Origin: Paralichthys olivaceus | Lineage: Eukaryota > Chordata > Actinopteri > Pleuronectiformes > Paralichthyidae | Direction of reading: 5' to 3' | Assembly: GCF_024713975.1 (NCBI RefSeq) | Contig: NC_091103.1 | Location: 77,501 to 141,500 of the forward strand | DNA: 64,000 nucleotides | Shown here: piece by piece, positions 800 through 6,619 of the stretch | Layout of the letters: each line of letters starts with the position of its first letter | Numbering within the stretch: position 1 is the first letter of the stretch | Notes under the pieces: model-generated | What the model was told of the DNA's origin: nothing | Databases searched by the model: none | The model's input: the letters and a program-made list of their open reading frames with translations, nothing else | Position numbers and translations under genes: made by a program

Positions 800-3700
800 G
801 GAAGACGATATTGAGGTTCTGACTGAGGACGGAGGGAAGGGGGGAGGAGAGACGTCACAGAACAGACCGCTCAGCAGAACGCCCAGGTGAGACCAGAACC
901 AACAGGTTCTAATCCTTCCAGAAAACAGAGAGATTTATAAAATAGTGACCCTTTATAGTCTGTTTCCTTGTCTGTCCCTCACTGTCTCTTTCTCTAACTT
1001 GCTGTTCATGTTTCTACAGTAAGAAAATGTCTCAGACGCCCCCTGCTGGTCTTCTGGATTCCATTTCTAACATATTTGGGTACGTAGTCGGCTACTGCGA
1101 ACAAAGTCATTAAATCAAGATGGATGACATGACAGCTCCCCCTGGTGGCTGGCTGCACTAAAGTTCATAAACCCTCTCCTCCTCTGTAGTTGTTTTCAGA
1201 CATGACTTCTGGGTAAAATCCTGAGTTTGTGTTTCAAGGCTGAAAAACTCAGCAGCAGGTTTTCTGCTCAGACTCGTTCACAACAGCATCAAATCCTCCT
1301 TGTTCTTCAGGTGAGAGGTGGAGCAGCCAGAGACAGGACGTGATCATGTTTACATCACCTGACACCGTCGTCAGCTCTCATCACCACAAACTGTCTTCAT
1401 GTCTTCGTCTGTGTCTTCTACGTGTGTCAGCACTTTGTCTCCAGAGACATTTGTTTGTGTTTCTTCATGTTTGTGTCACATGTTAGAAGCTCATCACCCC
1501 CCCACTCCCTCAGTGACTCAGTGGAGGACGCTCTGCTGTGTCCTCGCTTCTCCTGGACTTAGACTTTATACAGGAGTGAAGGAGACTTAATCTCTCTCTC
1601 TGTCTCTCTCTCTCCTTCTATCTCTCCTTCTCTCTTCTCCTCCAGACGTCGAGCGGCTAACTCTTTCAGTTCTTCACCTGAGAACCCTGACGCTCCATCA
1701 GGTGTGTGCACTGAGGTTCGAGTCCCATCAATGGCGCTGCACGTGTTTGTAAGTACGACATGTTGTTTAACACATGATGTTTGGACTGCTGCTCAGTCAT
1801 CAGTTTGGAAACATCACAGGACCTCTAATGTAGAGTTGGACAATATGCCAAAATTGTCCAATCATCTATCCTCAGTCAACAACTGTTAGTTGACGATATA
1901 TAAGAATAGTTAGAACACAATTATTTAAACAGCATTTGTATTGTGATGAATGCAAGCTTAGACTCATTGAAGAAAAGTATGGATCATTATGTGATGATCA
2001 GTGTTGATATTGTGGCGTCATTTCAAACAAATGGACGTCAGCTGAATTGATGTGTGTTCATAAGGGAGAGACTAGAAGGTCAGTGGCTTGATCCCCAGCT
2101 CTGCCTTTTCGTGCCACGATAGAGTGCTGCACACACGAGGAATCATCACTCTTTCCCAGTTGATATACGAACTCAGAGGTCGATGATGAACAGTAAAAGG
2201 TCTGATTACCCATAATCCTCTCCTAATGCCCTCTGGCTCCCAGTGGCCCTCCTCTCACTTCCCATCATGCACTAGTGTTGCAGTGGTGGTCCCGGGAGCT
2301 GCTGACAGACAGACAGGAAGTGACACTACAGTGTGTCTGTACAGAGATCGTATAGGCTCAAAGTGATGACTGACTTCCAACAGAACCAATCAGGATGGAG
2401 CATGAGGCTGAGGAGGAGGAGGGAGTTGATCTCAAGTTTTCAACCTGAGACCAAATGAGAGAGGGAGAGGGCGAGAGAGAGAGAGATAGAGAGACGCACA
2501 CTGATATTTTTGCACGTGTGTGTGCGCGCGTGTGTGTGTGTGTGCGCGCGCGTGTGCGTGCGTGCGCTTGTGTGTGCGCTTGTGTGTGTGTCTCAGGAAG
2601 CACACGATGGCGAGGTGAACGCTGTCCAGTTCAGCCCCGGCTCTCGTCTCCTGGGCACAGGAGGAATGGACCGCAGGGTCAAGCTGTGGGAGGTTGTTGC
2701 AGGTGAGGTCACCATGACACCATCACAGATTACGACATGTTAAGTCTGAGTTAACATCACTGACCTGCTCTCTCTGTCTCTCAGGTCGCTGTGAGTGTAA
2801 AGGAGCTCTAACAGGAAGTAACGCAGGGATCACCAGTATTGAGTTTGACAGCACGGTGAGTTAACAATAACCTGTTTTGTATGACTTAGTTTGTATTGTG
2901 TTGGTTAATTATGCTTGTGCGTTGTTCGTCCCATTCCCATGAACCAGATCTCACAAACACCGTGAGGGAATCTCTTCAAATTTTGTACAAACATTCAGTT
3001 GGATGGCCTGAATAGAATTCGGTGGTCAAAGGTCAAGATCATGGTTTCGTCACAAAGTATCTTTGTTTTTCTTGAACATGATGTAATTGTTGAACCGAAA
3101 ATGAAAATTCACTCATCTACTCAGCCTTATGTGGGTGAAGTTGAGTTTCAGAGGTAAACAGTGTTGCAGCCAAATACAATTGAAGTAACTGGAGATCGAT
3201 TCTTCAAACGTGAGGACACCAGCGATACCCACAATAGAGGCGCGAGATTGTGGCTTGGAGGATATCGGAGGACAAAACACCTAGAACTTGGTGTCAATGA
3301 CCTCGTTTTGGGTAGAATCTAACTGTCAGGGCTTACGGACACTTAACATGACTTACAGCAGCAGTACAGAGGCATTTATGAGAGTACATGTAAACAACAC
3401 ACTCATGTGATGGAAGCACAAGTGAAGAGTTAGATCTACTGTTGTTAATGATCTACAGATGGATCTACAAATGATGAAGCACCAGGTCTCTGGTGAAGAA
3501 GTCACGTCAGTAACATGTGTTGATGAGGCATTAATGTGATGAAGAGGAAAGAGAAGCTCCGTGTATCCTAGACATTCTAGACCTCCAGCAGCAGAACTAA
3601 GAGCAGGTCCAAGACAAACCTGGACCAACTCTAACTAAGGCTCGACCAGTAGATCTCGACAGTCTCACTGTCGATCTCCGTATCTCTCTGTACTCACAGG

Positions 3701-6619: not shown

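Follow-up and report, generated by a model that had tools for sequence, protein, structure and literature searches.

Two Probable U87/U88-Type scaRNAs in Introns of atg16l1 in a Fish

Two introns of a fish atg16l1 gene were found to contain elements that match the same Rfam scaRNA family over its full length. Both have the C/D-H/ACA layout and both are on the + strand of the window, by which we mean the whole 64-kb stretch of DNA that was analyzed. The upstream element, E1 (2178..2452, 275 nt), carries guides that fit U5 and U4 and is the probable orthologue of U87 (SCARNA5). The downstream element, E2 (4725..4997, 273 nt), carries a guide that fits U5 and is the probable orthologue of U88 (SCARNA6). 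We take both U87 and U88 to be hosted by human ATG16L1. It is likely that E1 and E2 correspond one-to-one to these two RNAs, are released from the introns of atg16l1, and mark U5 at U41, with E1 also marking U4 at A65. The arrangement is the known vertebrate one in a known host gene, and is real but ordinary.

Host Gene and Rfam Matches

The 3' part of atg16l1 lies on the + strand at 800..6619 and comprises 12 exons. Exons 1-6 of the window are located at 800-886, 1020-1079, 1646-1748, 2597-2702, 2785-2855, and 4556-4627, and exons 7-12 at 5096-5216, 5304-5409, 5496-5645, 5718-5765, 6332-6433, and 6526-6619, with the stop at 6619. The exon borders were placed by eye at AG/GT signals. The joined exons form a single open reading frame, and its product matched the structure chain of human ATG16L1 (5nuv_A) with an E-value of 2.1e-173. 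E1 is found within the 848-nt intron 1749-2596 and E2 within the 468-nt intron 4628-5095, each in the sense orientation. With these by-eye exon models, and counting downstream from the host intron of E1, that of E2 is the third. A GT-rich repeat occupies 2513-2595, between E1 and the 3' splice site of its host intron.

The entire 64 kb was scanned with Rfam on both strands, and four matches were above the gathering scores. Two of these are E1 and E2, and the other two are UnaL2 LINE 3' tails (RF00436) at 60803-60856 on the + strand (58.5 bits) and at 58276-58329 on the - strand (58.3 bits). The family matched by E1 and E2 is RF00478 (SCARNA6), for which the gathering score is 68. The score for E1 was 100.6 bits (E 5e-26) and that for E2 was 94.0 bits (E 5e-24), with both matches covering the full model, 1-265. 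No scaRNA family other than RF00478 gave a match above gathering in the whole window, and no second U87-like family was among the six rows obtained up to an E-value of 1 for positions 1-8000. A SCARNA2 row at 2451-2659 was set aside, given its score of 27.9 against a gathering score of 48 and its overlap with the GT-rich stretch and an exon; the rows for mir-3149, sno_ZL1, and sR36 in the same 8 kb were weaker than the SCARNA2 row and were also set aside.

The identification of E1 and E2 as putative scaRNAs is based on the match to RF00478. The family name cannot tell U87 from U88, because a U4-type D guide is present in the printed RF00478 consensus. The initial annotation had described two similar elements of about 235 bp in two different introns of atg16l1, with the second ending at 4957, and had named a covariance search as a check that a missing hit would count against. 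The two elements are present in sense orientation and are matched end to end with strong scores. Their lengths are 275 and 273 nt, and the second element ends at 4997, 40 nt further than had been proposed.

The remainder of the window was also annotated. Downstream of atg16l1 is an arrestin exon (PF00339, 9064-9360, E 1.1e-7), and beyond it are exons encoding PH and C1 domains, each slightly under the Pfam curated cut-offs. These exons would fit the order ATG16L1-SAG-DGKD, which we take to be the human gene order. A single 350-aa open frame on the - strand (16822-17871) encodes collagen repeats and a C1q domain; it lies after the arrestin exon (9064) and before the PH-domain exon (25018). A tandem array of approximately 6 kb is found at 42033-47988, with a 57-base unit in about 106 copies; an 11-base unit, AGTGGAACATG, was found as well in a scan of 41000-48000, and the array may extend past the scanned stretch. 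The array contains several open frames of approximately 70-110 aa on both strands. Its neighbors are an exon for a Gla domain (41716-41940) and one for a trypsin domain (51527-51883), and the array is perhaps inside one gene for a vitamin K-dependent protease. An exon of ribosomal protein L35a is located at 63243-63521 on the + strand (PF01247, E 9.3e-20). Genes for ribosomal proteins often host snoRNAs, and no Rfam match up to an E-value of 0.1 was obtained in the L35a region at 60900-64000.

Guides, Boxes, and Chance Controls

Boxes C, D', C', and D and the ACA are present in both elements; box C of E2 and both C' boxes are imperfect. The consensus of box C is RUGAUGA. In E1, box C is ATGATGA (2183..2189) and the D' guide, AGTAAAAGGT, extends over 2192..2201, immediately before box D' (CTGA, 2202..2205). 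The H/ACA domain follows at 2241..2383, where the RF00478 structure predicts two hairpins, a hinge, and an ACA at 2380-2382; ACAGGA at 2313-2318, which overlaps the next stem, was picked by eye as a candidate for box H, the consensus of which is ANANNA and which is expected to be single-stranded in the hinge. The probable box C' is TTGATCT (2426..2432), and seven of the nine columns over 2426-2434 are equal to the Rfam consensus. The D guide, AAGTTTTCAA, is at 2434..2443, ahead of box D (CTGA, 2445..2448).

The same order of features is found in E2. Box C is GTGATGT (4730..4736), the final base of which departs from RUGAUGA, and the D' guide, GTAAAAGGT, at 4740..4748 is followed by box D' (CTGA, 4749..4752). 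The H/ACA domain at 4788..4927 has two hairpins, a hinge with ACAGAA and AAAGGA as by-eye candidates for box H, and an ACA at 4924-4926. The probable box C' is ATGATCT (4973..4979), the D guide is at 4980-4989, and box D is CTGA (4990..4993).

The guides were scored against 870 positions of six human snRNAs. The letters of these snRNAs are human and may differ from those of this animal; a check of 59 letters whose modification or numbering has been published gave no disagreement. E1 pairs with U5 loop I through its D' guide over ten consecutive bases (nine Watson-Crick pairs and one G-U), and E2 over nine (eight Watson-Crick pairs and one G-U). U41 is opposite the fifth base before box D' in both elements, as previously annotated, and is the best fit for both D' guides among the 870 positions. 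Ten paired bases had been claimed for each element, which is correct for E1; the run in E2 ends at nine because the tenth base, T, faces U46 (U-U). Positions 2193 and 4740 are the only two places in the window with an exact copy of the 13-mer GTAAAAGGTCTGA.

The D guides of the two elements differ. The best fit for the D guide of E1 among the 870 positions is U4 A65, which is opposite the fifth base before box D in a run of ten Watson-Crick pairs, and the only exact match to AAGTTTTCAANCTGA in the window is this guide. It is a diagnostic feature that was absent from the initial annotation, and it separates U87 from U88. In E2, the U4 A65 guide of E1 is absent. No good site was found for the E2 D guide in the six human snRNAs, the best run being six Watson-Crick and three G-U pairs at U2 G33, and the guide agrees with the Rfam consensus at four of 11 positions.

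The frequency of such complementarity was determined with several controls. There are 977 CTGA motifs on the two strands of the window, and runs of at least nine pairs at U5 U41 were found beside three of them: box D' of E1, box D' of E2, and a motif at 16742 (-), with nine, eight, and six Watson-Crick pairs, respectively. Runs of ten Watson-Crick pairs at U4 A65 were found beside two CTGA motifs, box D of E1 and one at 52279 (-). When 25 internal snRNA methylation sites were considered together, the real window contained four runs of at least ten pairs. Two of these are in E1, and the others, a 12-pair run at 52279 (-) and a 10-pair run at 33868 (+), do not coincide with any Rfam match above gathering. 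The 12-pair run, which covers U4 around A65 and precedes a CTGA within 52276-52290 (-), looks like chance. In first-order Markov windows, 47 of 60 had a run of at least ten pairs beside CTGA at any of the same 25 sites, with 103 such runs in total. Since long guide runs are this frequent in simulated windows, the complementarity backs the Rfam match but is insufficient alone, and the earlier proposal that the target fit is an independent proof was rejected.

The pattern of box C, guide, and box D' was also searched in other genomes. It was found at 11 loci in a prokaryotic genome collection, all of them bacterial, and at none in viral contigs. The 11 loci gave one tRNA and no scaRNA when compared with Rfam at gathering, and are taken as chance matches.

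Assignment of the Two Copies

The table in a review (PMC7960923) lists scaRNA5 (U87) for U4 Am65 and scaRNA5/6 for U5 Um41 in human, in agreement with the initial description of U87 and U88 as guides for Um41. The entries for chicken in PMC2653536 include two such RNAs in ATG16L1, each with a U5 guide before box D', which favors the U87/U88 reading that had been given to this host gene. The RNA in intron 9 of chicken, listed at 294 nt, has a D guide for U4-A66 and a D' guide for U5-U40, and its homologues are given as U87 and U87/U88; the RNA in intron 11 is listed at 284 nt with the U5 guide only. We infer that chicken U5-40 and U4-66 are human U5-41 and U4-65, with the numbers off by one. 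According to a footnote in PMC2653536, the predicting program adds 15 nt to the stems at either end, and the two chicken lengths are therefore not directly comparable with those of E1 and E2. The order and the asymmetry are the same in the fish and in chicken: the upstream copy has guides for U5 and U4, and the downstream copy has a guide for U5 only. With dual guides in E1 and the U5 guide alone in E2, E1 is most likely U87/SCARNA5 and E2 is most likely U88/SCARNA6. The spacing differs, with E1 and E2 three introns apart and the two chicken host introns (9 and 11) two apart according to the table. This mismatch reflects either different exon models or the location of one RNA in another intron.

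E1 and E2 are identical at 205 of 269 aligned positions (76%). Their identity with the Rfam consensus is 148/258 (57%) for E1 and 138/256 (54%) for E2, and blastn of the two host introns joined 179 columns at 83%. The D' guide and box agree with the consensus at 14 of 14 positions in E1 and 13 of 14 in E2. In the second hairpin, the upper part agrees with it at only 5/27 (E1) and 4/27 (E2), and E1 and E2 agree with each other there at 23/27. With arms picked by hand, nine of ten pairs are formed in the upper stem of this hairpin in E1, which has one non-pair, and all ten are formed in E2, which has one broken pair in the lower stem. Relative to the consensus, the upper stem has changes on both sides of five pairs in E1 and of six in E2; between E1 and E2, there are changes on both sides in none of the five stems compared. 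The lower stem of the second hairpin was left out of the consensus comparison, the hand-picked consensus arms being out of register (2/6 pairs).

The fold energies of the H/ACA regions were not unusual relative to shuffled sequences, with z-scores of +0.51 for E1 (2237-2387) and -1.31 for E2 (4782-4931), compared with -1.16 and -0.54 for two intron stretches without a match. The consensus of the CAB box is UGAG. The hairpin loops of E1 and E2 contain CTAG and AGAG, which have AG alone in common with it. An unscored inspection by eye for pseudouridylation targets of the H/ACA hairpins gave nothing convincing.

The likeness of E1 to E2 above that of either to the consensus counts against plain one-to-one orthology if the duplication predates the bony fishes. 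It would be explained by an old duplication with later homogenization, and it would also be explained by a duplication within the fish lineage, from which E1 and E2 would be scaRNAs of the U87/U88 family without being one-to-one orthologues, E2 having lost its U4 guide independently. The 76% identity, the blastn alignment of the introns, and an intron spacing unlike that in the chicken table (PMC2653536) are all in favor of a duplication in fishes. Homogenization of neighboring copies also yields high similarity, however, and the chicken entries in PMC2653536 give the same two copies, upstream dual and downstream single. The loss of the same guide twice from the downstream copy is less economical. 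We consider a fish-lineage duplication unlikely, and homogenization is favored over it because the guide asymmetry is common to chicken. One tentative explanation is that gene conversion between the neighboring copies keeps the H/ACA domains alike inside each lineage while selection keeps the D guides apart, with U4 A65 addressed by the upstream copy only. The H/ACA pockets may have no conserved target and may serve for location and stability, with the C/D guides fixed.

There is a small chance that one of the copies, with E2 the likeliest candidate, is a duplicate in decay, unexpressed or not acting as a guide, which is compatible with orthology. The imperfect box C, the nine rather than ten guide pairs, the D guide without a recognizable target, and the broken lower-stem pair of E2 are in favor of this reading. 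On the other hand, the D' guide and box of E2 differ from the consensus at a single position, its box C', box D, terminal stem, and ACA are kept, the upper stem of its second hairpin is fully paired, and its score is 94.0 bits; E1 too has a non-pair in its second hairpin. That the two elements are ordinary intron sequence with chance U5-like complementarity beside CTGA is so improbable as to be practically negligible. A guide fit by itself is common enough in 64 kb, and box C, guide, and box D' occur together at the 11 bacterial loci, none of which has a scaRNA match above gathering. However, chance would have to account for two full-length covariance matches with E-values below 1e-23, in a gene that is also listed as the host of such RNAs in chicken (PMC2653536). 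One-to-one orthology with U87 and U88 is the reading that we prefer, and it is adopted below.

Proposed Action and Known Systems

Mature scaRNAs are trimmed from excised introns, assembled with C/D and H/ACA proteins, and active in Cajal bodies. E1 and E2 are presumably expressed, with splicing of the atg16l1 introns as their most likely route of release. After processing, the RNAs would associate with the methylation proteins of the box C/D class (fibrillarin), and their H/ACA domains would bind the H/ACA proteins together with the factor for Cajal-body targeting. The D' guides of E1 and E2 would pair with U5 loop I and direct a methyl mark to U41. E1 alone would pair with U4 through its D guide and direct a mark to A65. 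In spliceosome studies, U5 loop I has been placed against exon ends (PMC8283771), and the same U5 site is described as methylated in Drosophila, as Um42, in a preprint (PMC13228274). A conserved guide for this position would therefore be expected.

E1 and E2 add a probable fish case to the pairing of host gene and guides listed for chicken. The common asymmetry suggests that the division of labor, with U5 and U4 assigned to the upstream copy and U5 only to the downstream copy, is older than the split between ray-finned fishes and tetrapods. Since both RNAs are in a single gene, atg16l1 is a clean locus at which to examine a possible redundancy of two guides that address one site. Among the matches listed in our literature search, which covered titles and the starts of abstracts with subscription literature mostly outside its range, no paper treated U87 or U88 RNAs in fish. 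For the homology of U87 and U88, PMC3899987 cites the 2011 study by Marz et al. of unusually structured scaRNAs in animals.

E1 is like U87/SCARNA5 in its ATG16L1 host, its position as the upstream copy, the guides beside D' and D, and the C/D-H/ACA layout, and differs from it in the diverged letters of the H/ACA hairpins. Compared with the Rfam consensus, the second hairpin of E1 has an additional four nucleotides on its 3' pocket side. E2 is like U88/SCARNA6 (RF00478) in its ATG16L1 host, its position as the downstream copy, a guide for U5 only, and the full-length match to RF00478, but it has nine guide pairs rather than ten. It also differs from the printed RF00478 consensus, in which there is a U4-type D guide that E2 does not have. 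U85 (SCARNA10) is another RNA with a tandem C/D-H/ACA architecture. In the review table (PMC7960923) it is the guide for Cm45 and Psi46 of U5; it is thus similar to E1 and E2 as a scaRNA acting on U5 loop I, and differs from them in the U5 sites on which it acts.
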